From: Salinisphaera hydrothermalis C41B8
GTDB lineage: Bacteria; Pseudomonadota; Gammaproteobacteria; Nevskiales; Salinisphaeraceae
Reading direction: 5' to 3'
Length of the DNA: 64,000 bases
Assembly: GCF_000732535.1 (NCBI RefSeq)
Contig: NZ_APNK01000015.1
Span: 1 to 64,000 of the forward strand
Part shown: positions 7,665-42,969 of the stretch, one piece after another
How positions within the stretch are numbered: position 1 is the first letter of the stretch
Layout: every line of letters starts with the position of its first letter
The notes under the pieces: generated by a model
Told to the model about the DNA's origin: nothing
Database searches by the model: none
What the model saw: the letters and a program-made list of their open reading frames with translations, nothing else
Translations under genes and position numbers: made by a program

Positions 7665-8435
7665 ATGTCGAACGGGAACCATGACCGGCGACGGCGGCTT
7701 GCACCAGAGCCCATCCGAAAGCCATCCGGGTCGCCGCGTGCCGTACCGTCCGCCAACTGTCACGCCTGTGCATTCAAGCCCACCTGCTTGCCCGCGGAAC
7801 TCGACGGCGAGGCGCTGACGCGCTTCGAGCAGCGGGTCTGGCGCTCGTCACGGGCAGTGCGTGCCGGCGAGGTCCTGGTCCGGCAAGGCGAAACGATCGA
7901 TGCGCTGTATGCGCTACGCGTCGGATCGATGAAGGCTTTTTTCGATGAGCCCGATGGCACCGAGCGCGTATTGGCGTTCCGCTATCCGGGCGCCATCATC
8001 GGCCTGGCCGAGCCTTACCAACAATGCTGGTCGCGCAGTTTTGCCGCCCTCGAAAACACCTGGGTCTGTCGTATTCCGAGCACGGTAATCGATGACGTGC
8101 TGCAGTATCAGTTGATCCACCTGATGAGCGCCTGCCTTCGCCGTGAATATCAATCCCACCTGACGCTCGCACTGACCAGCAGCACGCGTCGCGTGGTCGC
8201 ATTCCTGCTGGAGACGAGCGCGACCTTCGGCGCACTCGGCCAGTCTGCGGTTCGTCTTCGTCTGCCCATGACCTACCTCGATATCGCCAGCTATCTGGGC
8301 ATGCGTCATGAATCGCTCTCGCGCACACTCGGCCAGTTGGAAAAACAAGGCCTGATCCAGAAAGACGGCAAGGTCATCGAACTCAACGATCTCGCGCGGC
8401 TTCGGCGGATGAAAGACGAATCGACACGCGATTGA
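7665..8435 (+). CDS. FNR-type oxygen-responsive transcriptional regulator (paralogue 2)
   Basis: A 256-residue Crp/FNR regulator, clearly paralogous to the one at 611-1477. Cysteines 32, 35, 41 (CHACAFKPTC) and 135 (TWVCRIP) fall at the same residue numbers, and the recognition helix YLGMRHESLSRTL is identical. It lacks the roughly 30-residue C-terminal tail of paralogue 1. It is expected to bind a [4Fe-4S] cluster and activate anaerobic genes at TTGAT-N4-ATCAA sites. The start at 7665 has only a weak ribosome site, but no better in-frame alternative lies before the cysteine motif. The upstream gap holds a perfect FNR box and a second palindrome, suggesting layered regulation. It converges on arcC. 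Confidence 0.9.
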   Translation: MSNGNHDRRRRLAPEPIRKPSGSPRAVPSANCHACAFKPTCLPAELDGEALTRFEQRVWRSSRAVRAGEVLVRQGETIDALYALRVGSMKAFFDEPDGTERVLAFRYPGAIIGLAEPYQQCWSRSFAALENTWVCRIPSTVIDDVLQYQLIHLMSACLRREYQSHLTLALTSSTRRVVAFLLETSATFGALGQSAVRLRLPMTYLDIASYLGMRHESLSRTLGQLEKQGLIQKDGKVIELNDLARLRRMKDESTRD

Positions 8436-8527: not shown

Positions 8528-9478
8528 TTAGCGGGGCTCTCTCCAATAATAGGCACACTCGCCCTTGGCGCCCGCCTCGATACGCGTGCCGGCCCGGCCG
8601 TTGAGCAGTAACAACGCATCCTCGAGCCGACCAATGGCCGCCATCCCGCCGGTCCGGGCGACGAAATCCCGGGCCGCGGCAATCTTGGGCGCCATCGAGC
8701 CGGCGGCGAACGTCATATCGTCCAGGGTCCCGGCGCTGACGCGCCGGATGCGGCGCGCCGCCGGCGTGCCGAAATCCACTTGCACCGCATCGACATCGGT
8801 CAACAACAACAATGCATCGGCGTTCAGGCAGCGGGCGAGCAATGCGGAGGTCGCATCCTTGTCAATGACCGCCTCCACACCGCCGTAGGAGCCGTCGTCG
8901 CGTCGAACCACGGGAATGCCACCGCCGCCGGCACAGATCGGGATCACGCCTTCGCGTAACAGCAGCGCGATCACGTCCAGTTCGAGGATGTCCACCGGGG
9001 CTGGCGAGGCCACCACACGACGATAGCCACCGCCGTCCGGCGCGATGGACCAACCGTGCTGCCGGGCCATCGCTTCAGCATCACGCTGGGTGTAGACCGG
9101 CCCGACCGGTTTCGTCGGCTGCTGGAAGGCGGGATCGGCCGCGGCGACTTCCACTTGCGTGAGTAGCGTCGCGATGCCGCGATCGCGCGGTAGCCGGTTC
9201 GCCAGCTCCTGCTCAATCAGATAACCGATCATGCCTTCCGTCTCGGCGCCGAGCACATCCAGCGGATACAGTTCGTCAGCGTTGTAGGCCTCGCCCTGAA
9301 GCGCCAATAGTCCGACCTGCGGCCCGTTGCCGTGCGCGATGACGACTTCGTGCCCGCCGTTAACCAGTCGGGCCAGCGCTTCGGCGGCGATTGCGGCATT
9401 CGCGCGTTGATTCTCGGCCGTCAGCGGCTGGCCTCGCCGCAGGAGCGCATTGCCGCCGAGTGCCACCACTACGCGCAT
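8528..9478 (-). CDS. arcC: carbamate kinase
   Basis: A 316-residue cytosolic enzyme of the amino acid kinase fold, starting RVVVALGGNALLRRGQ, the carbamate kinase N-terminal signature. It catalyses carbamoyl phosphate + ADP to ATP + NH3 + CO2, the ATP-yielding last step of the arginine deiminase pathway. ATG 9478 lies one base after the arcB stop codon, so the two are translationally coupled. It is the last gene of the arcD-decarboxylase-arcA-arcB-arcC operon. Length is normal for the family. Confidence 0.95.
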   Translation of the reverse strand: MRVVVALGGNALLRRGQPLTAENQRANAAIAAEALARLVNGGHEVVIAHGNGPQVGLLALQGEAYNADELYPLDVLGAETEGMIGYLIEQELANRLPRDRGIATLLTQVEVAAADPAFQQPTKPVGPVYTQRDAEAMARQHGWSIAPDGGGYRRVVASPAPVDILELDVIALLLREGVIPICAGGGGIPVVRRDDGSYGGVEAVIDKDATSALLARCLNADALLLLTDVDAVQVDFGTPAARRIRRVSAGTLDDMTFAAGSMAPKIAAARDFVARTGGMAAIGRLEDALLLLNGRAGTRIEAGAKGECAYYWREPR

Positions 9479-9479
9479 C

Positions 9480-10481
9480 TCAGCGCCCCAGCGTGGCGAC
9501 CATGATCGCCTTGATGCTGTGCAGCCGATTCTCGGCCTGGTCGAATACGATGGAATGCTTCGATTCGAAGACCTCCTCGGTGACTTCCATCGAATCCAGC
9601 CCGTAGGTCTGAAAGATTTTCTCCCCGTACTGCGTGTCGCGGTTGTGAAACGCCGGCAGACAGTGCATCACGCGCACCGCCGGGTTGCCGGTCGCATCGA
9701 GCATCGACCGGTTGATCTGATACGGGCGCAACAGCTCGATCCGCGACGCCCAGGCCTGTTCCGGCTCGCCCATCGACACCCAGACATCGGTATAGAGAAA
9801 ATCCACGCCGGCGACGGCGTCGTCGACATCGTCGGTCACCACGATGCGCGCGCCGGTCTGCTCGGCGAGCGCGCGACAGTAGTCCAGATGTTCGGCGGCG
9901 GGCTGACGCTCGGCGGGAGCCGCGATACGGCAGCCCATGCCGAGCTTGGCCGCCCCGATCATGAGCGATACGGCCACATTGTTGTGGCCGTCGCCGACGA
10001 AACAGAAGGCGATGTCCTTGAGCGGTTTGTCGCAGTGCTCGGTCATGGTGAGGAAATCGGCGAGCACCTGGGTCGGGTGGAACTCGTCGGTCAGCCCGTT
10101 CCAGACCGGCACGCCGGCATGGGCTGCCAGATCCTCGACGATGGACTGGCCGAAACCGCGATATTCGATGGCATCGAACATGCGCCCGAGTACCCGCGCG
10201 GTGTCCTTGATGCTCTCTTTGACGCCCATATGCGAGCCGCTCGGGCCGAGATAGGTCACGTGGGCCCCTTGATCGTGGGCCGCGACCTCGAACGCACAGC
10301 GCGTGCGGGTACTGTCTTTTTCGAATACCAGCGCGATGTTACGTCCGGCCAGCCGCGGCTGTTCCGTGCCGGCTGCGCGCGCGGCCTTGAGCTCGCGCGA
10401 GAGGTTCAGCAGATAACCGATCTCCGCGGGCGAAAAATCCTTGAGCGTGAGAAAACTGCGGTTGTACAGATTGAAAGCCAT
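9480..10481 (-). CDS. arcB: catabolic ornithine carbamoyltransferase
   Basis: A 333-residue enzyme with the carbamoyl phosphate loop EKDSTRTR and the C-terminal HCLPAFH that contacts ornithine. In the deiminase pathway it runs phosphorolytically: citrulline + phosphate to ornithine + carbamoyl phosphate. I chose ATG 10481 ([16 protein letters not shown]) because family members start there and a GGAAA site precedes it; the frame stays open upstream into arcA but is not family-like. It lies 20 bp after the arcA stop. The biosynthetic argF paralogue is not in this window; operon context assigns the catabolic role. Confidence 0.95.
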
Positions 10482-10501
10482 GATGAAATTTCCGGCAAAA
10501 A

Positions 10502-11722
10502 CTAGATCGGATCGCGTTCGAGCGGGCAGCTCATGCAATGGGCCCCGCCCCGCCCGCGCGAGAGTTCGAATCCGGGAATCGTAATCACTTCGATCCCGGC
10601 CTTGCGCAGCTGGGTATTGCTGTAGACGTTGCGGTCGTAGGCGATGACCACGCCCGGCGCGATCGCCAGCACGTTGTTGCCGTCGTCCCACTGCTCGCGC
10701 TCGGCTTCGTACTCGTCGCCTCCGGTCGGAATCACCCGCAGCGCCTTGACGCCCAGCGCATCGGCGACCGCGTCCAGGAAATTGTCCTCCGCCCGTAAAT
10801 CGAGCGTGCCCTCGCGCTCGCCCGGGCGCAGGCTCCAGGTCCGAAACGACTCCACCGCGGCCGGGAACATCGTGGCCGCATCGCGATCGAGCAATGTGAA
10901 CACCGTATCCAGATGCATGGCCGCGCGCGCCTTGGGAAAGGCCGCGGCGATCACGCGTTCCGCGCCCCCACGGGCGAACAGATTCAACGCCAGAGATTCG
11001 ACGGCCTGGGGCGTCGTACGCTCGCCCATTCCGACCAGCACGGTGCCGTTGCCGATGGGCATCACGTCGCCGCCTTCGATCGTCTGGCCGTCGTAGCTGC
11101 GGTCTTCCTCTCCGAACCAGAAGGCGAACGGTTGATCGCGGAATAACGGATGAAAGCGGTAAATCGTTTGGTAGTTCAGGGTCTCGCGTCGGCGCGCGGG
11201 CTTGGCCATTGGGTTGACCGATACCCCGTTATAGATCCAGCACGAGGTATCCCGCGTGAACAGATGATTCGGCAACGGCGGCAGAATGAAGTCGTGCCCA
11301 TCCATGGCCTCGGTGGTCAGCCCGGTACCACGGAACGGGCTTTCGGCGCGCGCGAGACCGCCGATGAGCATGTCCGTGAGTTCGCGGGCCGGCCGTTCGG
11401 CCAGATAGGCGCGCACCTCCTCGCATAGCGCCACGCCCACGTTGCCGGGCGTGATCGCACGCGCCAGCAGCCAGCGCCGTGCCTCGGCGTCCTCCAGCGT
11501 CTCGGTGAGCAGATGTTGCAGGTACAGCACTTCCACGTCGCGCTCGCGCAGCGAATCCACGAACACGTCGTGCTCCTCCCGCGCTCGCTTGACCCAGAGC
11601 ACATCGTCGAACAGCAGGCTTTCGCGATTACCGGGCGTGAGCCGCTGCAGGCTCAGATCCGGGCGATGCACGAGCACGCGGCGCAGCGTACCGACTTCGG
11701 AATAAGTGCCCAGCTGGCTCAT
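10502..11722 (-). CDS. arcA: arginine deiminase
   Basis: A 406-residue enzyme hydrolysing arginine to citrulline + ammonia. It shows the guanidino-modifying fold landmarks [34 protein letters not shown] and, near the C-terminus, [12 protein letters not shown] with the nucleophilic cysteine. ATG 11722 has a strong ribosome site (AAGGAG, 8 nt). It sits 58 bp after the decarboxylase stop and upstream of arcB. Ammonia release raises pH while the downstream arcB/arcC steps make one ATP per arginine. Control is probably from the FNR box at 15740-15753. Confidence 0.96.
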
Positions 11723-27175: not shown

Positions 27176-27540
27176 GGTCGCCTCCGGACCATCCAGCGCC
27201 GAGCGGTGAACACCATTCGAGCCAGCGTGCCGTATTGGCGCGCGTCGATCGTTGATCAGGATCAAACGGTGCCCCGGGCCACCATGTCCGACACGGTCGG
27301 CCGACGCGATGGAAAAACAGCTGGAGACTCGCCGTTTTTTCCCGCGCGCAAAAACAGAATCCGAGCCTGTTCGTCTATGGCTTCAAAACGCCGACCGGCC
27401 GAGCGCAGCGGGCCGGTAGCGCATCGGCCCGCCGGACGAGACACAACGGCGTGTCGTCATGAAATACGCCCTCGAAAGGCAGACATCGCCCGCTGTTTCC
27501 CATGCCATTCACCGGAAGCGACAGCTATTTTTCTGCCGGG
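27176..27540. other. 365-bp gap between hsp20 and phosphoketolase genes; FNR box, otherwise nothing recognised
   Basis: This stretch lies upstream of hsp20 and downstream of the phosphoketolase gene, both on the minus strand. It contains the perfect FNR box at 27252-27265. I see no gene in it and no clear terminator for the phosphoketolase transcript; T-rich stretches at about 27334-27341 and 27528-27535 lack convincing stems. Confidence 0.6.
27252..27265 (-). promoter_or_regulatory. perfect FNR box TTGATCAGGATCAA upstream of hsp20-ftsH
   Basis: Exact match to TTGAT-N4-ATCAA, centred 84 bp upstream of the hsp20 ATG. No good -10 hexamer is evident at the expected spacing, so the precise start site is unknown. 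Confidence 0.83.
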
Positions 27541-29916
27541 TTAATCACCCGCCCCCGGCCACTGCCAATCCCGCACCTCGGGCATGTCTTCGCCATGACG
27601 ATCGATGTATTGCCGGTGCTGGATGAGCTTGTCGCACAGAAGCCGCTTGAGCCGCCCGGCGCGCGCATGCGGGCGCGGCAGCTGGTCGATCGCATCGATC
27701 GCCAGGTGGAAGCGGTCCAGTTCGTTGAGCACGGTCATGTCGAACGGCGTGGTGATGGTCCCTTCCTCCTGATAGCCATGGACCCGCATGCCACGATTGC
27801 AGCGACGATAGGTCAGGCGGTGCACCAGCCACGGGTAGCCATGAAACGCGAATACGACCGGCCGGTCGGCCGTGAACAGATCGTCGAAATCGGCATCGCT
27901 CAGACCGTGCGGATGCTCGCGGTCGGACTGCAGTTTCATCAGGTCGACCACGTTGACCACGCGCACGGTGAGTTCCGGCAGATGCTCGCGCAGGATGGAC
28001 ACCGCCGCCAGCGTTTCCAGGGTCGGCACGTCGCCGCAACAGGCCATCACGATATCCGGCTCCTCGTCGCTTTCGTTGCCGGCCCAGTCCCATACGCCGA
28101 TGCCGCGGCTGCAATGCACGATCGCCTCCTCCGCGGTCAGCCACTGCGGGGCCGGATGCTTGCCGGCGATCACCACGTTGACGTAGTGACGGCTGCGCAA
28201 ACAGTGATCCATGACCGACAACAGGCAATTGGCATCCGGCGGCAGATAGACGCGCACGACCTCGGCCTTCTTGTTGACCACATGATCGATGAAGCCCGGA
28301 TCCTGGTGGGAAAAGCCGTTGTGGTCTTGGCGCCATACATGCGAGGCAATGAGGTAGTTGAGCGAGGCGAGTCGCGGCCGCCACGGTAGTTGCGTCGTCA
28401 CCTTCAACCACTTCGCGTGCTGATTGAACATCGAATCGATGATATGGATGAAGGCTTCGTAGCAGTTGAACAGGCCGTGGCGCCCGGTCAACAGATAGCC
28501 CTCGAGCCAGCCTTGGCATTGATGCTCGCTGAGCACCTCCATCACGCGCCCGTCGCGGGCCAGCAGTGCATCCTCGGGCCATAGCTCGCCGAGCCATTGA
28601 CGCGATGTGGCTTCGAACACGGCCTCGAGACCATTGGACAGCGTTTCATCGGGCCCGAACAGCCGAAAATGACGGCGTTCGTCGTTGAGCCGAATCACGT
28701 CGCGCAGGAATGGGCCGAGCACATGCGTGTCGCCCTTGCCGGTCGTGCCCGGCGTCGGGACCTGCACCGCGTAGTCGCGGAAGTCCGGCATGCGCAGATC
28801 GCGCAGCAACAGACCGCCGTTGGCATGTGGATTAGCGCCCATGCGCCGCGGCCCGACCGGTGCCAATTCCGCCAGCTCGGGCCGCAGGCGACCCGTGTCG
28901 TCGAACAGTTCCTCGGGCCGATAGCTTTTCAACCAGGCTTCGAGCTGTGCGAGATGCGCCGGGTTGGTCCGCGGATCTCGGATCGGTACCTGATGTGCCC
29001 GGAACGTGCCCTCGACCGGTGTGTCGTCGACCCGTGCCGGGCCCGTCCAGCCCTTGGGCGAACGCAGCACGATCATGGGCCAACGGGGCCGTTCGCAATC
29101 GCCACCGGACGCGACACGCTCGCGGGCTTCGCGCTGCGCGGCGCGAATTTGTTCGACCGCCCGATCCAGCGTGCTCGCCATGGCTTCATGCATCAGCGCC
29201 GGCTCGTGGCCCTCCACCCGGATCGGCGTCCAGCCATAGCCGCGCAGCAATTGATCGAGCTCGTCGTCGTCAATACGGGCCAGCACCGTGGGGTTGGCAA
29301 TCTTGTAGCCGTTGAGATGCAGGATCGGCAGGACAGCGCCGTCGGTCGCCGGATTCAGGAATTTGTTCGAATGCCAGGCGGTAGCCAGCGGCCCGGTCTC
29401 CGCCTCGCCGTCGCCAACGACACAGGCGGCGATCAGTTCCGGGTTGTCGAACACGGCACCGAACGCATGGCTGAGCGAATAACCCAGCTCGCCGCCTTCG
29501 TGGATCGATCCGGGGCATTCCGGCGAGGCATGGCTTGGCACGCCGCCGGGGAAGGAAAACTGCATGAACAGCTGACGCAGGCCGGCTTCGTCGCGGCCGA
29601 CGTCCGGATAGATCTCGCTGTAGGTGCCTTCGAGGTAGGTATGGGCGAACACCGCGGGGCCGCCGTGGCCCGGCCCCGAGAGATAGATCATGTCCAGATC
29701 GTGCGCCTTGATCGCCCGATTCAGGTGCGCATAGATGAAATTCTGCCCGGGCGTCGTCCCCCAATGCCCCAGCAACATCCGCTTGATGTGACGCGGCTCC
29801 AGCGGCCGGCGTAGCAATGGATTGTCGAACAGATACATCTGCCCGACCGAGAGATAGTTCGCCGCGCGCCAGTAGGCATCGATCCGCTGCAACAGGTCGG
29901 GATCAAGCGTTGCCAT
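27541..29916 (-). CDS. xylulose-5-phosphate/fructose-6-phosphate phosphoketolase
   Basis: A 791-residue thiamine diphosphate enzyme. Landmarks are [11 protein letters not shown] (79-89), the cofactor-binding GDGEAETGP (168-176) and [11 protein letters not shown] in the central domain. It cleaves xylulose 5-phosphate or fructose 6-phosphate with phosphate to acetyl phosphate plus glyceraldehyde 3-phosphate or erythrose 4-phosphate. Acetyl phosphate can give ATP via acetate kinase, but neither that gene nor an intact phosphotransacetylase is in view; a broken phosphotransacetylase lies at the left edge. Downstream of a small Cys protein gene with an FNR-like site, it may share that promoter. 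Sugar phosphate could come from the nearby glycogen genes. Confidence 0.94.
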
Positions 29917-30323: not shown

Positions 30324-30365
30324 ACCTTAGGTCGCGCCGGACACGGGCGAATTGAGCCAGATCAA
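30324..30365 (-). promoter_or_regulatory. near-consensus FNR site upstream of the small Cys protein and phosphoketolase
   Basis: TTGAGCCAGATCAA at 30352-30365 has one mismatch to the FNR consensus and overlaps the glgA stop codon. A minus-strand TAAGGT (30324-30329) is centred 32 bp from the box centre, compatible with a weak class II promoter. Confidence 0.5.
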
Positions 30366-31861
30366 TCCCGGGGCATCCCCTCGATGCCTCGCGACCGGGC
30401 TGCCTGGGCGTAGATCTCGAGGTAGCGGCTCGCACTGGCCCGCCAGCTGAAATCTCGGGCCATACCCGCTCTTTGAATCCGGCGCCAGACGTCCGGCTGG
30501 GCAAAGTAGGCGAGCGCGCGCTCGAGTGCTTCGATAAAGGCGGCTTCCGTAGCCGGCTCGAACACGAAGCCGGTCGCGCGCTGGTCTTCGAGCGTGTCCG
30601 TATCGGTATCGACGACGCTGTCGGCCAGCCCGCCGCAGCGATGCACCAGCGGTGGCGTGCCATAGCGCTGGCTGTACATCTGATTGAGGCCGCAGGGCTC
30701 GAACCGCGACGGCATGAGAAATAGATCGGCCCCCGCCTCGATACGATGCGCCAGCCCTTCGTCAAATTCGAGACGCACGGCGACCGCGGCGGGATGCTCG
30801 GCCGCGATCGCACGAAGACGTGCCTCGATCGCCGGATCGCCCCGGCCAAGCAAGGCCAACTGCCCGCCGCGTTCGAGCAGGCGCGGCAGGCCGGCCAGGA
30901 TCAGATCGATCCCTTTCTGCGCCACCAAACGCGAGATCACGCCGCATAGCGGGGCCTCGGCACGCTGGGCAAGCCCCAGCTCGTGCTGGAGCGCTTTCTT
31001 GCAGCGTCGCTTACCGCGGAGATCTTCGGCGTCGAAACAGGCGGGAAGATACGGGTCGTCCGCTGGATTCCAGACGTCGGGGTCCAAGCCGTTGAGAACC
31101 CCCGACAGGCATTCGCCCCGTGCGCGCAGCAGCCCATCCAGCCCATGCCCCGCATGCGGCGTGCAGATTTCGCGGGCATAGGTCGGGCTGACGGTGGTCA
31201 ACGCATCCGCGAACGCCAGGCCGCCCTTGATGAAACTGAGCTGGCCATGGAATTCGAGCGCGTCCCGGTGCCAGAGCCAGGCCGGCAAATCGAGCCGAGC
31301 GCGCGTCTCGGCCGCGAACAGGCCGCGGTATTGCAAATTGTGGATGGTAAAAATCGTCGTGGCCGGGACGCGTTCGAGCATGGCGTGTACTGGCACGAGC
31401 CCGGTTTGCCAGTCGTTGCAGTGGAGGATATCGGCCTGCCAGTCCAGTCCGGCCCGTCCGCCGGCCAGCGCTGCGGCAGCCCGGGCGAAAACCCCGAAGC
31501 GGTACGCGTTATCGGGCCAATCGTTGATATGTTCGTCATGATACGGATTGCCGCGTCGGTCCCCGACGCCCGGCAGGTCGACAAACCAGCTGCGCAGGCC
31601 GCTGGAATCCGGTCGGGTCGTCAATAGACGTATCCCGGCGACCGGGGGCCGGAACCCGGGGACGGCGGTCAATTCGGCATACTGGGCCAGCACATCGCCA
31701 TAGGCCGGAATCAGCAACCGTACATCGTGGCCCGCGGCTGCCAGCGCGCGTGGCAGACTGCCGGCGACATCCGCCAGCCCGCCGGTCTTGATCCAGGGCA
31801 CTGCCTCACTGGCGACAAAGAGAATACGGTGTCGTCGTACCGGATGATCGTCGGGCATCAT
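30362..31861 (-). CDS. glgA: glycogen synthase (ADP-glucose, GT5)
   Basis: A 499-residue glycosyltransferase family 5 enzyme with two Rossmann domains. The N-terminal ADP-glucose loop KTGGLADV is present, as is the C-terminal sequence [18 protein letters not shown] containing the E-x7-E retaining-transferase motif. It elongates alpha-1,4-glucan from ADP-glucose. The start overlaps the glgB stop by ATGA, so the two are translationally coupled. ADP-glucose is supplied by GlgC encoded divergently at 34340. Confidence 0.95.
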
Positions 31862-34026
31862 GGCCGTGGCCCCCGCTGAAGAATCAGGCCGCCGAGGGGC
31901 GGCAGCGTCAGAACCAGCGATTGCGCCCGGCCATTGCAGGCTACCGCTTCACTCTCGATCCCGCCCAGGTTGCCGACGTTGCCGCCGCCATACATCGAGG
32001 CATCGGAATTGAGCCGCTCGCGATAATAACCGGGCTCGGGCACGCCAAGACGATAGCCCTCGCGGGCCTCGGGCGTGAAATTGAGGATCACGACGATGTC
32101 CTGGTCGCCGCCGCGTCGCTGGTAAGCGATGATGGAATGACCGGCGTCATCGCAGTCGATCCATTCAAAACCGGCCGGCTCGAAGTCCCGACGATGCAAT
32201 GCCGGCTCGTTCTGATACAGACGCCCGAGATCGCCAATCAATGTAGCGATGCCGCGCCGCTCGGGCTCGTCGAGCAGGAACTGCGGCAAGGCCAATTGAT
32301 CGTTCCATTCCCAGGGATTGGCCATTTCCGCGCCCATGAACAACAGTTTCTTGCCCGGATAGGTGAACTGATAGGTATACAGCAGGCGCAGGTTCGCGCG
32401 TTTCTGCCACGGATCACCGGCCATCTTGCCGTAGAGGGAGCCTTTTTCGTGTACGACCTCGTCGTGCGACAAGGCCAGTACGAAATTCTCGTTGAAGGCG
32501 TATAGCAAACCGAAGGTGAGTTCGTCGTGGTGGTAGGCCCGGTGAACCGGGCGGCGATGCAGATAGTCGAGCGTGTCGTGCATCCAGCCCATGTTCCATT
32601 TCATGGAAAACCCGAGCCCCCCGGCTTCGGGCGGACGCGAGACGCCCGGCCAGCTGGTCGACTCCTCGGCGATGGTGACGCTGCCGGGGCATTCGCCATG
32701 GGTGAGCACATTCAGTGTGCGCAGGAACTCGGTCGCCTCGATGTTTTCATTGCCGCCGTGCGCGTTGCGCCGCCAACGACCCGCCGCGCGGGCATAGTCC
32801 AGATACAGCATCGACGCCACGCCATCGACGCGCAGGCCGTCGAAATGGAATTCCTGCAACCAGTAGAGCGCGCTCGACAACAGGAAGCTGCGCACTTCCG
32901 GGCGGCCGTAATCGAACTGCAGCGTCCCCCACTCCGGATGCTCGCCGCGCAACGGATCGGCGTCTTCGTACAGAGCCTCGCCATCGAAGCGGGCGAGCCC
33001 GAAGTCGTCGCGCGGGAAGTGCCCCGGTACCCAGTCGAGATATACGCCGATACCCGCTTGATGCAGCACATCGACGAAATAGCGTAGATCGTCCGGCTCC
33101 CCGTAACGGCTGGTCGGCGCGAAATAGCCCGTGGGCTGATAGCCCCAGGAGGCGTCCAATGGATGCTCGGTGAGCGGCATGACCTCGACGTGGGTCATGC
33201 CCAGCTCGCGTACATAGGGCACCAACCGATCGGCGAGCTCGCGATAGTTGAGAAAGCCGCCGTCGGGCTGGCGTTGCCAAGAGCCGAGGTGCACTTCATA
33301 GATGGCGATTGGCGCCCACTGCCAGGCGCCGCGCGCGGCCATCCAGTCGCCATCGCCCCAGATGTGGTGCGACGGCCCGGTCACGACCGCGGCCGTGGAC
33401 GGCCGGCGCTCGAAGCGCCGCCCATAGGGATCCGTCTTGTGCCGCACTCGCCCGTTCACATCGCGAATCTCGAATTTGTAGAGCGCGCCCTCGGACAGTC
33501 CCGGCACGAACAGCTCCCAGACGCCGCTGCGGCTATGGATGCGCATGGGATGCGCCCGCCCGTCCCAACGGTTGAAGTCGCCGATCACGCTGACCCGCTC
33601 GGCCCGGGGCGCCCATACGGCGAAACGCGTACCTTCGATCCCCTGATCCGTCGCCTGATGCGCGCCCAGCAGGCGCCACGCCTGGGTGTGTTCACCGGTA
33701 TTGAAGCGCGCTAAATCGGTTTCATGCAGCAACGAGGCAAACGCGTACGGATCGTGCTGTTCATGCCGATGCCCGTATTCGTCGATCCAGCTCAGGCGAT
33801 AGTCATCGGGCAACCGGCCGTCGTCCCCCTGCCATTCGAACAAGGCCGAGTTGCGGTAGCGCGTCATGGGCTCGTTCAACGGCATTAACCAAGCGCGATG
33901 TGCATGCGGCAGGAAGGCGCGGACGACTTCGCCGTCGCGGCCGACGTGGCGGCCGAGCACGCGATGCGGATCGTGCAAACGGGCATCCAGCAGGCGGATG
34001 ACCTGTTCATTATGCGAGTCGTTCAC
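31858..34026 (-). CDS. glgB: 1,4-alpha-glucan branching enzyme (GH13)
   Basis: A 722-residue enzyme with two N-terminal CBM48-like domains (about 1-220), the GH13 barrel with the nucleophile region [17 protein letters not shown] and acid/base TIAEEST, and a C-terminal all-beta domain. It makes alpha-1,6 branches in glycogen. Length is normal for proteobacterial GlgB. It is the first gene of glgBA, divergent from the glgC-GH57-malQ operon across a 313-bp gap. Confidence 0.96.
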
Positions 34027-34339
34027 GCTGCTTCATCCCCGGCCGGGTCAACCGTTCCATCCTGCGGGATAGTTCCGCACGATATTTTGCGCGAAATCAA
34101 TACCACCGCCCTCTTTTTGTCTTAATCTGTAAATAGCCGTCGATGTTTCGCCCGAGTCCATGGCCCGAAGGGTTGAATCGCCATAAAAATTGACGAGGGA
34201 CGCCTCTCGGCATCGCGAGTCCGAGGCGCGGCCTGCCCGGAGCCGATGGCCAGCGGAACACGATGTGCGGACGCCGACGCGGTGCGCGCACGCTGCGTCA
34301 ATAGGCCCGGGTACGGGGTTATGGTGGAGGGTGGTGACC
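34027..34339. other. 313-bp divergent control region of glgBA and glgC
   Basis: No gene is visible. The glgB side (34085-34135) is AT-rich compared with its surroundings and probably holds that promoter. The glgC side carries a strong ribosome site (GGAGGG at 34326-34331). I see only a half FNR site here (minus strand TTGATT near 34095), no full palindrome, and no confident -10/-35 pair. Confidence 0.5.
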
Positions 34340-35605
34340 ATGGATGGCGAAAAACAACAAGCACATTCCAATCGCTTCATCAGTCTGGTCACACGCGACA
34401 CGCTCGCCATGGTCCTCGCCGGCGGTCGGGGCACCCGGCTGGGCGGCCTGACGCGACGACGCGCCAAACCTGCCGTGCCCTTCGGCGGCGAGTTCCGCAT
34501 CATCGATTTCGTGCTGTCGAACTGCATCAATTCCGGTATTCGCCGGGTATCGGTGCTGACCCAGTACATGGCGCATCCGTTGATCCGCCACATGCATCAG
34601 GCCTGGGGTTTCCTGCGCGGTGAATTCGGGGAATTCGTCGAGGTCGTGCCTGCCCAGCAGCGCATGGGCGAGGCCTGGTACCGCGGCACCGCCGACGCCG
34701 TTTATCAGAACCTGGACATCATAGCGGAGCATGAGCCCCGATTCGTGCTCGTGCTGGGCGGCGATCACGTCTACAAGATGGATTACGGCCCCATGCTGGG
34801 TTTCCATATCGGGCACGAGGCCGACGTCACCGTGGGCTGCGTGGACGTGAGTCTGGATGAAGCCCGGGGGTTCGGCGTGATGACGGTGGACGATGACCAG
34901 CGCATCCGCTCGTTCGATGAAAAACCCGAGGCGCCCACGCCCATGCCGGGCCGCCCCGATCGAGCGCTGGCATCAATGGGCATCTATGTCTTCAGCACCG
35001 ACTACCTGGTGCACATGCTCGAGGACGACGCTGCCAATCCCGACTCGAGCAGCGATTTCGGCAAGGACATCCTGCCGCGAGCGGTCGCCGAGAATCACGG
35101 TGTCTATGCCTACCACTTCAACAAGCATACCGATTCCGGCACCGGCTACTGGCGCGATGTCGGCACACTTGACGGCTATTGGAACGCCAATCTCGAGCTG
35201 ATCAACGTCACCCCCGAGCTCAACCTCTACGATCGGGACTGGCCGATCTGGACTTATCAGGAGCAGGTCCCGCCGGCGAAGTTCGTATTCGACGACCAGG
35301 GGCGCCGGGGCGAGGCCGTCAATTCCATGGTGGCGGGCGGCTGCATCGTGTCGGGCGCGACCGTGCGACGCTCGTTGCTGTTTTCCAGCGTACTGGTTGC
35401 CGAACGCAGCGTGATCGAGGATTCGGTGATTCTCCCGGATGTGGTCATCGGCGCCGATTGCCGGATTCGTCGCGCCGTGATCGACAGCGACTGCCATATT
35501 CCCGACGGCACCCAGATCGGTATCGACGAGGTCGCCGATGCCCGTCGCTTCGAAGTGACCCACGAGGGCATCGTCCTGGTGACCCGTGAGGCCCTCAATG
35601 GCTGA
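34340..35605 (+). CDS. glgC: glucose-1-phosphate adenylyltransferase (ADP-glucose pyrophosphorylase)
   Basis: A 421-residue enzyme. The N-terminal nucleotidyltransferase domain has VLAGGRGTRLGGLT and KPAVPFGGEFRIIDF; the C-terminal left-handed beta-helix runs from about 300. It makes ADP-glucose from ATP and glucose 1-phosphate, the committed step of glycogen synthesis, and is normally allosterically controlled. ATG 34340 is supported by GGAGGG 8 nt upstream; the frame extends to 34190 without homology. Its stop overlaps the start of the GH57 gene by 8 bp. Confidence 0.95.
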   Translation: MDGEKQQAHSNRFISLVTRDTLAMVLAGGRGTRLGGLTRRRAKPAVPFGGEFRIIDFVLSNCINSGIRRVSVLTQYMAHPLIRHMHQAWGFLRGEFGEFVEVVPAQQRMGEAWYRGTADAVYQNLDIIAEHEPRFVLVLGGDHVYKMDYGPMLGFHIGHEADVTVGCVDVSLDEARGFGVMTVDDDQRIRSFDEKPEAPTPMPGRPDRALASMGIYVFSTDYLVHMLEDDAANPDSSSDFGKDILPRAVAENHGVYAYHFNKHTDSGTGYWRDVGTLDGYWNANLELINVTPELNLYDRDWPIWTYQEQVPPAKFVFDDQGRRGEAVNSMVAGGCIVSGATVRRSLLFSSVLVAERSVIEDSVILPDVVIGADCRIRRAVIDSDCHIPDGTQIGIDEVADARRFEVTHEGIVLVTREALNG

Positions 35606-37286
35606 CACCAAGCGCCCGCCGTTGCAGATCGTGCTGTGTTGGCACATGCACCAGCCGGATTATTTCGATCCCACCAGCGGCCGGTTCCAGGACCCCTGGA
35701 CCTATCTCCACGCGATCAAGGACTACGTCGACATGGTGGCGCATCTCGAGGCCCATCCCGACATGCGGGCGGTGGTGAATTTCTCGCCCGTGCTGCTGGA
35801 GCAGATCGAGGCCTATACCACCGACCTGACCGCCGTGGCCGCCGGGGGTGGGCGAATTCATGATCCGCTGCTCGCCGCGCTGCATCAGCCGTTGATCCCG
35901 AACGAGCGGGAGGAACGCATCATGCTGCTTCGCGCCTGTCTGCGGGGCGCGGAGAATCGCTTGTTCGAGAACCTGGCCGTCTATCAACGCCTGGTCGCGA
36001 CCGCGCGCCACATGCTCGCGCATCCGGACGAAATCGGCTATCTGCACGATCAGTTCTTCGTCGACCTGCTGGTCTGGTACCACCTCGGCTGGATCGGCGA
36101 GACGGTGCGGCGCAGCGATGCGCGTATCCAGGACCTGCTGGCGCATCAGCAGCACTACAGCATGCTCCAATGCCGCACGCTGGTGGCCGTAATCCGCGAG
36201 CTGATCGGCGGGGTGATCGATCGCTATCGCGTTCTGGCCGATGCCGGGCGCATCGAGTTGTCGATCACGCCGTACAGCCATCCTATTCTGCCGCTGCTCA
36301 TCGATTTGAACAGCGCGCGCGCTGCCTGGCCGGACTGCCCGATGCCGCTCGCCGCGGCTTATCCGGCCGGCGAAGATCGCGCCCGCTGGCAGCTCACCCG
36401 GGCGCGCGAAGTCTATGAACGCTTCTTTGGCCATCCCCCGGCCGGCTGCTGGCCGGCCGAGGGCGGCGTCTGCGACCGCACGGTCGCGCTGGCCGGAGAA
36501 GCCGGTTTCACCTGGGTCGCAAGCGGGCAAGCAGTGCTACGCAACAGCCTGGCCGATGAAGAGCCCGCCATGACCGCGCTCTATCGCCCCTACCGGCTAC
36601 CGAATGGCGGCGCGGCCTGTTTCTTTCGCGACGATGCATTGGCCGACGCCATCGGCTTCGTTTATCGCGACTGGCACGCCGACGACGCGGTTGCCGAATT
36701 CATCCATCGGCTTGAAGCGATCGACGCCGCCCGAACAGACAACCAGCCCATGGTGGTCCCGATCATTCTCGATGGCGAAAACGCCTGGGAATACTATCCG
36801 GAAAACGGCTATCACTTTCTCGGCGCCCTCTATACCGCGCTGGCCAGCCACGAACGCCTGGCCACCACGACTTTCTCTGCATTTCTCGAAGCGGCCCCGC
36901 GCGCGGCCGGCCGACTGCGCAAGCTGGTGGCCGGCAGCTGGGTTTATGGCACGTTCTCGACCTGGATTGGCGATAGCGAGAAGAATCGGGCCTGGGACAT
37001 GTTGGCCGCTGCCAAGCACGTGTTCGATCAGAGAGCCCCAGCGCTGGACGATGCCACGCGTGCCGCCGCCGAGCGCCAGCTCTCGCTGTGCGAAGCCTCG
37101 GACTGGTTCTGGTGGTTCGGCGGCGACAACGCGGCGGATACGGTCACCCATTTCGAGCGCTTGTTTCGCGTGCATCTCGCCGCGCTATACCAGCTGCTGG
37201 GTTGCGACCCGCCCGATGCCCTGGCCCATGTATTCACCCACGGCGTGAGCCACGGCAGCGTCGATACCATGCGCCCAGCCCACTGA
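35598..37286 (+). CDS. glycoside hydrolase family 57 protein (alpha-glucan amylase/transferase)
   Basis: A 562-residue GH57 enzyme with the family's first motif WHMHQP, a nucleophile region GCWPAEGGVCD and the acid region IILDGENAWEYY. GH57 members include alpha-amylases, 4-alpha-glucanotransferases and branching enzymes acting on alpha-1,4-glucans. No signal peptide, so it is cytoplasmic. ATG 35598 overlaps glgC and is preferred over 35586 because GTGAGG lies upstream and family members begin close to the HMHQP motif. It probably trims or remodels glycogen together with MalQ and GlgP. Confidence 0.88.
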   Translation: MADTKRPPLQIVLCWHMHQPDYFDPTSGRFQDPWTYLHAIKDYVDMVAHLEAHPDMRAVVNFSPVLLEQIEAYTTDLTAVAAGGGRIHDPLLAALHQPLIPNEREERIMLLRACLRGAENRLFENLAVYQRLVATARHMLAHPDEIGYLHDQFFVDLLVWYHLGWIGETVRRSDARIQDLLAHQQHYSMLQCRTLVAVIRELIGGVIDRYRVLADAGRIELSITPYSHPILPLLIDLNSARAAWPDCPMPLAAAYPAGEDRARWQLTRAREVYERFFGHPPAGCWPAEGGVCDRTVALAGEAGFTWVASGQAVLRNSLADEEPAMTALYRPYRLPNGGAACFFRDDALADAIGFVYRDWHADDAVAEFIHRLEAIDAARTDNQPMVVPIILDGENAWEYYPENGYHFLGALYTALASHERLATTTFSAFLEAAPRAAGRLRKLVAGSWVYGTFSTWIGDSEKNRAWDMLAAAKHVFDQRAPALDDATRAAAERQLSLCEASDWFWWFGGDNAADTVTHFERLFRVHLAALYQLLGCDPPDALAHVFTHGVSHGSVDTMRPAH

Positions 37287-37290
37287 CCCG

Positions 37291-38670
37291 ATGCCGCACA
37301 CGTCCGCCTTGGATCGCCGACGCAGCGGCGTGCTGCTGCATCCGAGTTCGTTGCCGCGGCCTAGCGACGGCCGGGCAGCGCCGGGCGAGGCCGAACGGTT
37401 CTGTGATTTTCTTGCCGCCTGCGGCTTCAGCGTATGGCAGACCCTGCCCCTGAATCCACGCGACGAGACCGGCAGCCCATATCGCAGCGCGTCGGTGTTC
37501 GCGATCGATCCAGCGCTGCTCGCCCTCGACGAAACGACCGCCGTCGAGTCGCCTCCCGATCTGGAGACCTTTGTCACGGAACAGGCGTACTGGCTGCCCG
37601 ACTATGCGCTGTACATGGCGTTGCGGCGCGAACTGGGCCGGCCCTGGTATGACTGGCCGGCGCCACTGCGCCAGCGCGAACCCGGGGCGCTACGGGCCGC
37701 ACGGACCCGGCACGCCGCGGCCATCGGCACCACCTGCCGCCATCAATTTCGCTGCCATCTCGCCTGGGCACGCGTGCGCGCGCAGGCACACAGCCGCGGG
37801 ATCCGGCTGTTCGGCGATCTGTCGTTCTTCGTCGCCTACGACAGCGCCGACGTTTGGGCTCGGCGCGACCTCTTCCAGCTCGACGCGGCCGGCCGCATGA
37901 CCGCGAACACCGGCGTACCCCCGGATTATTTTTCTGCCACGGGCCAGCTCTGGGGCATGCCGCACTACGACTGGCCGGCGATACGCGCCGATCACTGGCG
38001 CTGGTGGATCGAGCGTCTGCGGCGCCAGCTCGCGCTGTTCGATCTGTTGCGGCTGGACCATTTCCGCGGGCTCGCCGCCGCTTGGCGGGTGCCCGTGGAC
38101 CGAGCCGATGCCGCCAGCGGCCGATGGGAGTCCGGCCCGGGCGATGCACTGCTGAGCGCGCTCACCGATGCCCTCGGTGCCCTACCGCTGGTGGCGGAGG
38201 ACCTGGGGCAGATCACGGCCGATGTGGACGCACTGCGTCAGCGCGCCGGGCTGGCGGGCATGCGGGTGCTCCAGTTCGCTTTCGACGGCAACGCCGATAA
38301 CGTCCATCTGCCGCACAATCATGCGAACAACGCGGTGGTCTATACCGGCACACACGACAACAACACGCTGCTCGGCTGGTGGCGCGAGGATTGCGACAGC
38401 GCCGCCCGCCGCCATGTCGCGGCCTATCTCGGCCAGCCGCCGGATCGCGTACCGGCGGCTCTTCAACGTCAGACGCTGGCCTCCGTCGCTCGGCTCGCGA
38501 TCCTGCCGATGCAGGATATTCTGCAGCTGGGGGCCGAGGCCCGCATGAACCGACCGGGCACCGCGACCGACAACTGGTCCTGGCAACTCGAAGGCATACC
38601 CGAAGATCCGGAAACACGCGCTTATTACCGCTCGCTCAACACATTGTACGGCCGCTTGGCGGGCGACTGA
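37291..38670 (+). CDS. malQ: 4-alpha-glucanotransferase (amylomaltase, GH77)
   Basis: A 459-residue GH77 enzyme, somewhat short for the family. It starts RRSGVLLHPSSLP and contains catalytic-region motifs LDHFRGLAAAW, VAEDLG and THDNNT. It transfers glucan segments between maltodextrins, making chains long enough for phosphorylase. It begins 4 bp after the GH57 stop and is the last gene of glgC-GH57-malQ. A MITE-like element starts 5 bp after its stop. Confidence 0.94.
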   Translation: MPHTSALDRRRSGVLLHPSSLPRPSDGRAAPGEAERFCDFLAACGFSVWQTLPLNPRDETGSPYRSASVFAIDPALLALDETTAVESPPDLETFVTEQAYWLPDYALYMALRRELGRPWYDWPAPLRQREPGALRAARTRHAAAIGTTCRHQFRCHLAWARVRAQAHSRGIRLFGDLSFFVAYDSADVWARRDLFQLDAAGRMTANTGVPPDYFSATGQLWGMPHYDWPAIRADHWRWWIERLRRQLALFDLLRLDHFRGLAAAWRVPVDRADAASGRWESGPGDALLSALTDALGALPLVAEDLGQITADVDALRQRAGLAGMRVLQFAFDGNADNVHLPHNHANNAVVYTGTHDNNTLLGWWREDCDSAARRHVAAYLGQPPDRVPAALQRQTLASVARLAILPMQDILQLGAEARMNRPGTATDNWSWQLEGIPEDPETRAYYRSLNTLYGRLAGD

Positions 38671-38675: not shown

Positions 38676-38986
38676 AGGGCGTGTTGAGGTTTCGTGCGAG
38701 CGCCGCGTTGGCGTCCGCAAATCGTGACCGGCAAGGCGCGAGTCGCCGGCTCTGGGCGTGCCACGACCCAGACTCGCAACACCGTTGAGCGGCCCTGGTT
38801 AATTTTTTATGGGCGGCCCCACCCGAAGGGACAAGCGCCCATGAATTAACGACACGACGGCAATCCAGCGTTGTCGCTCTCTCGCGTAGGCCCACTACGC
38901 CACGTTCGCTACGCGTCGTCTTGCCGCCCCTGGTTAATTTTCAGGGAGCGCTTGGCGCGGACTCGGACGAAACCTCAACACGCCCT
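38676..38986. mobile_element. MITE-like element with 20-bp terminal inverted repeats
   Basis: AGGGCGTGTTGAGGTTTCGT (38676-38695) is a perfect reverse complement of 38967-38986; the similarity continues imperfectly inward. The 311-bp interior has no gene. It holds a 14-bp direct repeat CCCTGGTTAATTTT (38793-38806 and 38928-38941) and a hairpin (ATGGGCG 38809-38815 with CGCCCAT 38836-38842, flanked by TTAATT/AATTAA). It fills the gap between convergent malQ and glgP, and its right end overlaps the glgP stop codon. No target duplication is evident. Confidence 0.65.
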
Positions 38987-41546
38987 AGAGCCAACGCATC
39001 AACCCGGTCTCGAATGGATGCGCGAGCATGGGGTGATGCGGATAAGCGCGCACTTGATATTCATAGCGCCCGGGCACCTCGATAGGCTCCGCGAGGCGAT
39101 AAATCGCGGTACCATTCTCGCCGTTCTCCGGTGCGAGCAGACAGCAGATCCCGGCCTCGGTCTCGCCGTCGTCGCGCACGCGCGTCATGACGCATTCGAG
39201 CCGCAGATCCTCGGCGCTCAGCCCCTGTAGTTGTACTTCAATATGCAGTTCCAGCGGTTCACCGCTATCGATCTGCTCCGGTCGACCGTTGCTGCGGCTC
39301 AGGGTGACGCCGGGCCAGGCATCGGCGACTCGTTGCTTCCAAGCCACCAGCTCGGCAGCCGGCTTGCCGTTGTCACGGGCCAGACGACGACCGTGCCGGG
39401 TGGCCGGAATATACAGATTCTCGATGTAATTCAGCAGCATGCGCTGCGCATTGAAATGCGGCAGCACGGTATACATCGACGCTTTGGCACGCGCGACCCA
39501 GCCGGGCGAATAACCGAAATGCCCCCGGTTGAAGTACAACGGTATGACCTCGTCTTCAAGCAGATCCAGCAGGTCCTCGGCCTCGTAGTGATCGCGCTGC
39601 TCGGGGTCGCTGTGATTATAGGGTGTGATCGCCCACCCGTTGTCGCCCTGGAAACCCTCGCCCCACCAGCCATCGAGCACGCTGACATTGAGCGCCCCGT
39701 TGAGCCCGGCTTTCTGTCCGGAGGTGCCGCAGGCTTCCATCGGATACAGCGGCGTATTCAGCCAGACGTCTGCCCCCGCCACGAGCTGGCGCCCCATCGC
39801 TAGGTCGTAGTCCTCGAGCACAAACAGCTTGCCGGCGAATTCGGGCTGCTGCGACTGTTCGACCAGCGCACGAATCAATGCCTGGCCGGGTTCGTCCGCC
39901 GGGTGCGCCTTGCCGGCGAACAACAGGATGACCGGGCGCTCGGGGTCGTTGAGCAACGCCGCCAGCCGCGCCGCGTCGCGCAGGAGCAGCGTCGCCCGTT
40001 TGTAGGTGGCAAACCGCCGTGCGAACACCAGCACCATCGGGTCGCGTCCAAACGTCGGCTTCAACATGGCCAGGCGGCGCTCGATATGCGCTTCGCCCAC
40101 GCCCTGGCGTCGATATTGGCGCGCCAGGCAGTTGCCGACATAGTCGAGCATATCCGCCTTGATCGACATGCGCTGCAGCCAGAATTGCTGGTCCGGTATC
40201 GACGCCACCAGGTCGTGCCAGAAATGATGATCGCACTGTCGGGCGCGCCACCCGGGCGCGTGCATATCGAAGAAATAGCTCCACTGCCGCGACAGAAAAG
40301 TCTGAACGTGGACGCCATTCGTCACGTATTGCAGCGGCGACTCGTCGATCGGCACCTGCGGCCAGATATGGGCCTCCATTTCCGCCGTCACGCCCCGATG
40401 GATCCGACTCACCGCGTTCTGATAACGAGATGCACGCAGCGCGAGCGTGGTCATGTTGAAGGCCGTCTGGTTCTGTTCGCTCTGGCCGAGGGCCAGCAGC
40501 TGTTCGAGCGGCAAATTCATCGCCTTGGCATAAGGCGCAAGATAAGCGGCCGCCAGATCGTGCTCGAATACATCGTGCCCGGCCGCAACCGGCGTATGGG
40601 TCGTAAACACGGTGGCCGCCGCGACCTGCTCGAGCCCGGCCTCGAATGTCGTGCCGGCCGCGATGGCTTCCCGACACCGTTCGACCATGAGGAACGCAGC
40701 ATGCCCTTCGTTAACATGCCATACCGAAGGCTCCAGCCCGAGTGCGCGCAGCGCTCGGACACCCCCGACGCCCAGAACCAGTTCCTGCTCGATGCGGCGT
40801 TTCTTGTCACCGCCGTAAAGCTGGAACGTGATCGAGCAATCCGCCTCGTCATTGCCCTCGACATCCGTATCGAGCAAATAGAGCGCCAGATGGCCGATCT
40901 CGGCCCGCCATATCTGAACCACCACATCCCGTCCCGGCAACGGGACGACGATCTGTAGCGGCGCGTCGTTGTCGTCGCAAACCAGGGTAATCGGCAAATC
41001 GCGCAGATCGTGCGGTTGAAACAACGCCTTCTGGCTGCCGTCGCGCTCGATCTGCTGGCGGAAGTAGCCCTGGCGATACATGAGGCCCACCGCCACGAAC
41101 GGCAGCCCTAGCCCGCTCGCGGCTTTGCAATGATCGCCAGCGAGGATGCCCAGCCCGCCGGAATACAACGGCAGACTCTCGTGCAGACCGTACTCGGCGC
41201 AGAAGTAAGCGATCAGCCCCTGTTCGGAATCCAGCTTTTCGGCAACGAGCGCAGACGGACGACTGGTCTGATCGCGATACGTCCGAAACAGGCCGAGCAC
41301 GTACTGGTATTCCTCCAGGAAGGCGGCATTCCCGGCGAGCTCATCGATCCGCTGTTGCGAAATCCGGCGCAGGAACACTTTGGGGTTATGCCCGCATCGT
41401 TCCCACAACGCCGTATCCATGCGCCAGAACAAGCCACGGATATGGCGATCCCAGGCATACAGCAAATTTTCCGACAACGCCTTGAGTTCCGACAGGGATT
41501 CGGGCAACCGAGCCTGAACCTCCAGGACATACTTCTGACCTGACAT
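38985..41546 (-). CDS. glgP: alpha-glucan (glycogen/maltodextrin) phosphorylase (GT35)
   Basis: An 853-residue phosphorylase of the bacterial/archaeal type with an N-terminal DUF3417-like region, FCAEYGLHESLPLYSGGLG, and a PLP-site region GTSGQKAGLNGALN. It releases glucose 1-phosphate from glycogen at no ATP cost. The C-terminal FETGLMRWL is family-like, and the TAG stop sits in the terminal inverted repeat of the adjacent MITE-like element. ATG 41546 has AGGT upstream. An FNR-like site (41730-41743) is centred 190 bp upstream, so mobilisation may be anoxia-induced while glgBA and glgC show no such site. Confidence 0.93.
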   Translation of the reverse strand: MSGQKYVLEVQARLPESLSELKALSENLLYAWDRHIRGLFWRMDTALWERCGHNPKVFLRRISQQRIDELAGNAAFLEEYQYVLGLFRTYRDQTSRPSALVAEKLDSEQGLIAYFCAEYGLHESLPLYSGGLGILAGDHCKAASGLGLPFVAVGLMYRQGYFRQQIERDGSQKALFQPHDLRDLPITLVCDDNDAPLQIVVPLPGRDVVVQIWRAEIGHLALYLLDTDVEGNDEADCSITFQLYGGDKKRRIEQELVLGVGGVRALRALGLEPSVWHVNEGHAAFLMVERCREAIAAGTTFEAGLEQVAAATVFTTHTPVAAGHDVFEHDLAAAYLAPYAKAMNLPLEQLLALGQSEQNQTAFNMTTLALRASRYQNAVSRIHRGVTAEMEAHIWPQVPIDESPLQYVTNGVHVQTFLSRQWSYFFDMHAPGWRARQCDHHFWHDLVASIPDQQFWLQRMSIKADMLDYVGNCLARQYRRQGVGEAHIERRLAMLKPTFGRDPMVLVFARRFATYKRATLLLRDAARLAALLNDPERPVILLFAGKAHPADEPGQALIRALVEQSQQPEFAGKLFVLEDYDLAMGRQLVAGADVWLNTPLYPMEACGTSGQKAGLNGALNVSVLDGWWGEGFQGDNGWAITPYNHSDPEQRDHYEAEDLLDLLEDEVIPLYFNRGHFGYSPGWVARAKASMYTVLPHFNAQRMLLNYIENLYIPATRHGRRLARDNGKPAAELVAWKQRVADAWPGVTLSRSNGRPEQIDSGEPLELHIEVQLQGLSAEDLRLECVMTRVRDDGETEAGICCLLAPENGENGTAIYRLAEPIEVPGRYEYQVRAYPHHPMLAHPFETGLMRWL

Positions 41547-41729: not shown

Positions 41730-41743
41730 TTGACGCGGATCAA
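41730..41743 (-). promoter_or_regulatory. near-consensus FNR box TTGACGCGGATCAA (glgP side)
   Basis: One mismatch to TTGAT-N4-ATCAA. It is positioned to activate leftward transcription toward glgP, though the -10 at the expected spacing (AACGAT, 41703-41708) is weak. Confidence 0.6.
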
Positions 41744-41787: not shown

Positions 41788-41828
41788 TTGATTCGGATCA
41801 ATCCACTTTCGCCAAGGCTGGTTACAAT
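41788..41828 (+). promoter_or_regulatory. FNR-dependent promoter of the orphan gamma-subunit gene
   Basis: Perfect FNR box TTGATTCGGATCAA (41788-41801). TACAAT at 41823-41828 is a 5/6 match to the -10 consensus, centred 31 bp from the box centre, the class II FNR arrangement. Predicted transcription start near 41835. Confidence 0.88.
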
Positions 41829-41884: not shown

Positions 41885-42751
41885 ATGAGCCGAAGCCACG
41901 AAATCCAGCGGCAGATCCGCAATGTACAGCGCCTGCAACGCGTGATGCGGTCCATGCAGCTGGTGGCCATGGCCAAGCGCCGCCGATGTACCGACCGAAT
42001 GCTTGCTGGGCGTCCTTATGCCGCTGCCATTCGCCACGTCGCCCGACACGTGGTGGCCGCGCACAGCGAATTCAGGCACCCCTTGTTGGATCATCGCGAT
42101 GACCAGCGCGCCGGCTATATCGTGGTGACATCCGATCGCGGCCTTTGCGGCGGTTTGAATCATCGGTTGCTGACACGCGTCAACCACGCGATGGATGCCC
42201 GAACGGAAACCACTGACGAGATCCCGCTGGGCGTATTCGGCAAACGTGGCATGGCATATTTTCGCCGGCGCGCCGGGCGGGTGCTCGCCTCCGCCAACAA
42301 TCTGGCCGATGCCCCCGCCGCCGAAGCGCTCACCGAGACGATCCGAACACTCATCGATGAGTATGCCGAGGGCCGCATCGATCGCCTGTTCCTGGCGTTC
42401 AATCGTTTCGAGAATGTGTTGCACCAGAAGCCGATGATCGTACAGCTTTTACCGGTCCTGCCTATCGAAAGCGACGACATGCCGCACACTTGGGACTACA
42501 TCTACGAGCCCGAGTCGATCGACCTGATCGACGCTGTACTGCGCCGCTATATTCATTATCAAATCTACCAGGCCGTGCTGGAAAACCGGGCGAGCGAGAT
42601 GACCGCACGGGCCACCGCCATGCAGAAAGCGACCGACAATGCCGCCAACCGAATCAAGAAACTGACCCAGATTCGTCACAAACTTCGGCAGGCCGCGATC
42701 ACCCAGGAGATTCAGGAGATTATGGCTGGATGCGAGGCAACCAGCGGCTGA
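41885..42751 (+). CDS. orphan F1-ATPase gamma-subunit homologue
   Basis: A 288-residue full-length homologue of ATP synthase gamma (E. coli AtpG 287). The N-terminal rotor helix HEIQRQIRNVQRLQRVMRSM, the central SDRGLCGGLN (83-92), and the C-terminal WDYIYEP, ATDNAANRIKKL and RQAAITQEIQEI are all conserved. No other ATP synthase subunit gene adjoins it. Basic substitutions such as AKRRRC replace the usual ASKMRK. ATG 41885 matches the family start; an in-frame ATG at 41840 would sit only about 5 nt from the predicted transcription start. It could replace the housekeeping gamma in F1 under anoxia, changing coupling or blocking wasteful ATP hydrolysis (inference). Confidence 0.88.
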   Translation: MSRSHEIQRQIRNVQRLQRVMRSMQLVAMAKRRRCTDRMLAGRPYAAAIRHVARHVVAAHSEFRHPLLDHRDDQRAGYIVVTSDRGLCGGLNHRLLTRVNHAMDARTETTDEIPLGVFGKRGMAYFRRRAGRVLASANNLADAPAAEALTETIRTLIDEYAEGRIDRLFLAFNRFENVLHQKPMIVQLLPVLPIESDDMPHTWDYIYEPESIDLIDAVLRRYIHYQIYQAVLENRASEMTARATAMQKATDNAANRIKKLTQIRHKLRQAAITQEIQEIMAGCEATSG

Positions 42752-42842
42752 TCCGGGACCGACTCCGCCTCTTGCCCGCGTCGGTTCCGCCCCGCTTCAA
42801 ACACAAATCCACCGCCGAACCGGCGCTGCTCACGCCATAAAA

Positions 42843-42872
42843 AAAGCCGCTTCATGAAAATGAAGCGGCTTT
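42843..42872 (-). terminator. rho-independent terminator for tRNA-Lys (possibly bidirectional)
   Basis: A perfect 13-bp stem (AAAGCCGCTTCAT / ATGAAGCGGCTTT) with a GAAA/TTTC loop. On the minus strand it is followed by a run of T, correct for ending the tRNA-Lys transcript. It also lies downstream of the gamma-subunit gene on the plus strand and may serve both. Confidence 0.85.
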
Positions 42873-42893: not shown

Positions 42894-42969
42894 TGGTGGG
42901 CCGTGCAGGATTCGAACCTGCGACCAATTGATTAAAAGTCAACTGCTCTACCAACTGAGCTAACGGCCC
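42894..42969 (-). tRNA. tRNA-Lys (anticodon TTT)
   Basis: A 76-nt cloverleaf with encoded CCA. The acceptor GGGCCGT pairs with ACGGCCC, the D-arm is TAGCTCAGTTGGTAGAGC, the anticodon loop is CTTTTAA and the T-arm contains GGTTCGAATCC. A terminator follows at 42843-42872, and a candidate promoter lies upstream. Confidence 0.97.

Follow-up and report, generated by a model that had tools for sequence, protein, structure and literature searches.

Alternative gamma isoforms are already known in plant chloroplasts, where the Arabidopsis pair ATPC1/ATPC2 provides a second gamma gene whose product can replace the main gamma and alters regulation of the ATP synthase, as we propose below for a bacterial gene (PMC5522872). 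Unlike that gene, the plant pair is eukaryotic and not under FNR control, and the difference between its members is a loss of redox regulation, with no rewriting of the shaft described in the part of the report consulted (PMC5522872). Housekeeping AtpG proteins (E. coli, P. aeruginosa 9o19, A. baumannii 7p2y) share the fold, length, tether and foot motifs of the orphan gamma analyzed here, which in contrast lies outside an atp operon, carries an FNR box of its own and has altered lever contacts on its shaft. The gamma of the N-ATPases (TIGR03323) is likewise an alternative to a housekeeping gamma, and it belongs to a complete second operon. The orphan, unlike it, has no alpha or beta gene nearby, scores far below the TIGR03323 cut-off (81 bits against 282) and groups in a tree with housekeeping gammas; on the score and the grouping an N-ATPase remnant was rejected. 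For the surrounding region the closest likeness is the lxa locus of Burkholderia cenocepacia, a low-oxygen-induced cluster with universal stress proteins, according to its published description. In the portion of the literature that was searched, we found no bacterial second gamma described as FNR-controlled.

The window, a 64,000-nucleotide stretch of the Salinisphaera hydrothermalis C41B8 genome, contains an orphan gamma gene that is real, well placed and unusual. The encoded protein matches Pfam ATP-synt (PF00231) over its full length with 276 bits (cut-off 39.9) and TIGR01146 with 256.5 bits (cut-off 194.45), which places it among the F1 gamma subunits and agrees with a preliminary description of the locus as a full-length gamma homologue standing alone beside glycogen phosphorylase: the divergent neighbor is indeed glgP, and no atp gene adjoins the orphan, alpha and beta having been looked for at the locus and found absent. 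The housekeeping AtpG model NF004144 scores the orphan at 321.5 bits, below its cut-off of 372, and the organism's own housekeeping gamma at 456.7. An alternative start at 41840 is possible and would yield a protein of 303 residues, the 15 additional ones lying at the shaft end; no strong Shine-Dalgarno sequence precedes 41885, and the ribosome-binding site is weak.

A complete atp operon in the order atpI, B, E, F, H, A, G, D, C, with its own gamma, was located on contig C9 of the same genome. The orphan is therefore an addition rather than the sole gamma, an outcome that would have undone the preliminary description, and alignment of the two gammas gave 42% identity. That an FNR-boxed orphan distinct from the housekeeping gamma is present is thus a supported observation. 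A single epsilon-type subunit is encoded in the genome. A match to ATP-synt_ab on contig C7 was considered as an orphan alpha and set aside, since it resembles FliI, the ATPase of flagellar export, and FliH- and FliJ-like reading frames adjoin it (assigned by reading only).

Table 1. Features of the orphan gamma locus and the adjoining region (window coordinates)
Feature	Position	Strand	Remarks
Plasma-membrane proton-efflux P-type ATPase	1640..4171	-	TIGR01647, 961 bits; 72% identical in G007
Second FNR-family regulator	5800..6552	-	without N-terminal cysteine cluster
FNR-family regulator	7665..8435	+	C-x2-C-x5-C cysteine signature (Fe-S type, by eye); perfect FNR box at 7516
Arginine deiminase pathway (carbamate kinase-like, OTC, ADI)	8528..11722	-	
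RbbA, ABC-2 permease, HlyD-like adaptor, outer-membrane factor block	18284-24702	-	
Phosphoketolase	27541..29916	-	
Glycogen cluster glgA, glgB, glgC, GH57, malQ	30362..38670		
glgP, alpha-glucan phosphorylase	38985..41546	-	divergent neighbor; 87% identical in G007
Second FNR-like box	41730..41743		one mismatch; probably belongs to divergent glgP
Perfect FNR box TTGATTCGGATCAA	41788..41801	+	centre near -41 of predicted start site
-10 hexamer TACAAT	41823..41828	+	read from sequence
Orphan F1 gamma subunit (candidate alternative rotor)	41885..42751	+	288 aa, intact frame
tRNA-Lys (TTT)	42894..42969	-	right-hand anchor, conserved in sister species

The perfect FNR box and the suitably spaced TACAAT hexamer named in the preliminary description are both present upstream of the orphan (Table 1). 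The position of the hexamer places a predicted transcription start near 41835, and relative to this predicted site the box is centered near -41, which together with the -10 hexamer gives class II FNR geometry. The whole genome holds 23 perfect FNR boxes as compared with one match to the reversed control pattern, and five of the 23 fall between 7.5 and 41.8 kb of the contig that carries the orphan, making a chance occurrence of its box very unlikely. Boxes with at most one mismatch number 13 in the window (0.86 expected). We infer from the promoter sequence that the orphan gene would be switched on by FNR as oxygen runs out. The second box, at 41730, more likely serves glgP, as glgP of the sister genome G007 is also preceded by a one-mismatch box (L133:1539). 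Elsewhere in the S. hydrothermalis genome, four perfect FNR boxes lie within 15 kb on a single contig (G000:C22:35728-50320).

To the left of the orphan lies a low-oxygen gene set comprising the proton pump, FNR regulators, arginine deiminase, phosphoketolase and glycogen genes, the last of which is glgP (Table 1), and the region also encodes a Usp-domain protein, FtsH and two Orn/Lys/Arg decarboxylases with a permease. FNR-like boxes are found near the P-type ATPase gene at 521 and 4592. A 207-residue protein (5163-5786, minus strand) has only a sub-threshold hemerythrin-like match and a relative in G007 that is 44% identical. A 233-residue reading frame (26843-27544, plus strand) extends to the end of phosphoketolase and has no Pfam match; it contains a perfect FNR box at 27252 and so may be miscalled as a gene. 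To the right are tRNA-Lys, queC, queE and the tol-pal genes, named by reading their translations, and a terminator-like hairpin follows the tRNA at about 42841-42872. No repeat of the tRNA-Lys 3' end was found within the window, and after the tRNA some sister species have a CCAGACAAG-plus-hairpin stretch similar to that of S. hydrothermalis, leaving integration at the tRNA gene unsupported here.

Comparison of the queC locus in 12 sister genomes (three of these stretches being under 2 kb) identified only G007, the closest by queC, as having island genes near the tRNA, represented at that point by the P-type ATPase alone. This genome carries most of the gene set in the same order, starting about 20 kb further, with identities of 90% for phosphoketolase and 93% for arginine deiminase in addition to the glgP value in Table 1. 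Its matching stretch lacks the RbbA block, and the interval between the tRNA and glgP is filled by other genes, among them those for a NorB-like protein and a phosphotransacetylase. Beside the tRNA-Lys (L121 842-4642) are a NorB-like nitric oxide reductase and a recombinase-like fragment, the latter recognized by eye and without a Pfam match. The only gamma in the G007 genome is the housekeeping one; the orphan is absent from its copy of the region, where no gamma remnant was found.

The orphan protein was also searched against samples of relatives, the class, the phylum, the order and a further order, about 1,200 different genomes in all, and it was found in a single species only. No second orphan gamma was present among the matches listed from these genomes or in two scans of genome contigs. 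The best of the listed matches were 43-47% identical to the orphan, and alpha and/or beta motifs lay alongside at those of their loci that were tested, L189 excepted. Of the contig scans, the one with the plain orphan protein returned no matches; the other used a single pattern, an alignment padded with artificial rows favoring orphan-specific residues, and gave a best match of 44% among those listed. At least 80 loci were recovered with the padded alignment, and among 80 of them 61 had both alpha and beta motifs, 18 had one and L189 had neither. Five genomes with two gammas (G125, G157, G175, G290 and G351) were discarded as candidates, their second matches being split pieces or, at 24-25% identity, taken as N-ATPase-like. 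The later searches used strict thresholds and the class and phylum results cover the matches listed only; an orphan of greater divergence could therefore have escaped. The recurrence with phosphoketolase, Usp and glgP that the preliminary description had proposed surveying was not found in the other genomes searched, even in the sister that shares the region.

We assessed the divergence of the orphan with a tree of 90 gammas and by identity to 87 housekeeping gammas. In the tree it falls among gammaproteobacterial housekeeping gammas, its placement among them being unresolved, and apart from the N-ATPase-like pair. The N-helix (residues 1-40) averages 35% identity to the housekeeping gammas, which among themselves have a mean of 78% and a minimum of 57%; the corresponding values are 51%, 76% and 58% for the C-terminal part and 42%, 57% and 40% for the globular foot. 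By these minima the foot lies at the edge of the housekeeping range and the shaft outside it. The excess divergence of the N-helix over the rest has p = 0.011 when columns with 95% conservation or more are compared and p = 0.0013 for those with 99%. Part of the change from K to R matches the low-lysine composition of neighboring genes. The description of the orphan as well conserved is therefore only partly right: the foot, the tether (R268/Q269) and, at the tip, T273 and E275 are kept, but the shaft is not.

The strongest of the rival explanations is that an acquired gamma with little or no F1 function has hitchhiked in the region and, placed behind an FNR promoter, drifts as constraint on it relaxes. 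The orphan's terminal branch of 2.5 substitutions per site as compared with a median of 0.07, its restriction to one species and absence from the sister's copy of the region, and the concentration of change in the shaft all speak for such a paralogue, and with a single orphan sequence the uneven divergence fits relaxed constraint as well as adaptation. However, the frame is intact, the invariant motifs DRGLCGGLN, WDYxYEP, ENxxxE and RQAAITQE are kept despite the high overall divergence, and the perfect FNR box is well placed. We consider drift unlikely on this evidence, though more credible than any of the other rivals.

An AlphaFold2 model of the orphan built from 28 sequences (mean pLDDT 84.6) has the shaft helices at 3-59 and 211-287 plus a globular foot, and its best Foldseek matches are 7p2y_g (TM 0.89) and 9o19_G; the model shows only that the gamma fold is intact. 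The contacts of the shaft were examined by transferring published sites (PMC9447477) to the orphan through alignment with E. coli gamma. At six of the 12 beta-lever contacts (12N, 15R, 25L, 243A, 244T and 256R) the orphan carries residues new relative to the 87 housekeeping gammas, whereas housekeeping gammas held out singly show between zero and two at the same sites. All 87 have S at position 12 and M at position 243, a pattern from which the orphan departs. Its Q at contact 9 occurs in 19 of the 87, and its residues at contacts 17, 227, 228, 231 and 252 are also present among them. The catch-loop tether R268/Q269 and the tip residues T273 and E275 are unchanged, while seven of the 22 tip positions (265-286) are new. 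ATP-driven proton pumping is lost in the E. coli mutants gammaS12A, gammaK9I and betaD372V, whose unloaded ATPase changes at most two-fold, and S12A and D372V lower ATP synthesis about 100-fold (PMC9447477). By this comparison, a motor built on the orphan would turn with little torque. Torque in thermophilic F1, however, does not depend strictly on any one rotor residue, and shape suffices for partial torque (PMC4052266), so the substitutions alone do not prove a loss of coupling and compensation inside the orphan's shaft is possible. No compensating change is seen in the organism's own beta lever, whose sequence is ordinary (DIIA...DELSE).

The lever contacts weigh against a rotor exchange tuned for hydrolysis, in which F1Fo would readily reverse and use ATP derived from arginine, acetyl phosphate or glycogen to pump protons. 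Such an enzyme would suit a fermentative region with ATP-yielding pathways, and the tether R268/Q269 and the tip residues T273/E275 are kept; yet among the altered contacts are published ones that E. coli needs to pump protons under load, S12 and M243 included, and a dedicated proton pump is already encoded in the region. The efficient reverse pumping suggested in the preliminary description is accordingly disfavored, the better fit being an enzyme that idles or is weakly coupled; we regard the hydrolysis-tuned exchange as improbable. Somewhat less probable again is a decoy or inhibitor that binds epsilon, the c-ring or alpha3beta3 but completes no rotation, and so blocks or uncouples the housekeeping enzyme: the foot is better kept than the shaft and retains W203, D204, Y205, Y207, E208 and P209, but a pure foot-binding decoy needs neither a kept tether nor T273/E275. 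A role outside the ATP synthase, for which nothing speaks beyond the separation from other atp genes, is very improbable given the retained gamma fold and F1-specific contact residues.

The explanation we favor, at somewhat short of an even chance, is that the orphan is an anoxia-induced, FNR-activated replacement rotor that would give a weakly coupled, idling F1Fo. When oxygen is exhausted, FNR would activate the orphan gene and newly made F1 would incorporate its product in place of the housekeeping gamma, an exchange we infer to be feasible because the foot facing epsilon and the c-ring, the catch-loop tether and the tip residues are kept. With its beta-lever face changed, the shaft would then deliver less torque and weaker coupling, and the resulting F1Fo would neither pump protons efficiently nor drain the gradient. 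Membrane potential would instead be held by the P-type proton pump on ATP from arginine deiminase and from phosphoketolase and glycogen, and an idling F1Fo in anoxia would make sense beside such a pump and such substrate-level ATP sources. Against this explanation stand the lack of a second orphan among the roughly 1,200 genomes covered, the sister's copy of the region, which does without the gene, the new residues at the tip and the weak ribosome-binding site. The more specific form of the proposal, in which oxygen controls the exchange of gammas through FNR and the rewritten lever contacts make a tightly coupled F1Fo idle in anoxia, we advance a little more tentatively.

If the proposal is correct, bacteria may re-gear their ATP synthase by swapping the rotor, and not by inhibitor proteins or epsilon. 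The orphan would then provide a natural set of shaft substitutions for testing how beta-lever contacts set coupling, and a natural equivalent of the gammaK9 and S12 mutants made in the laboratory.
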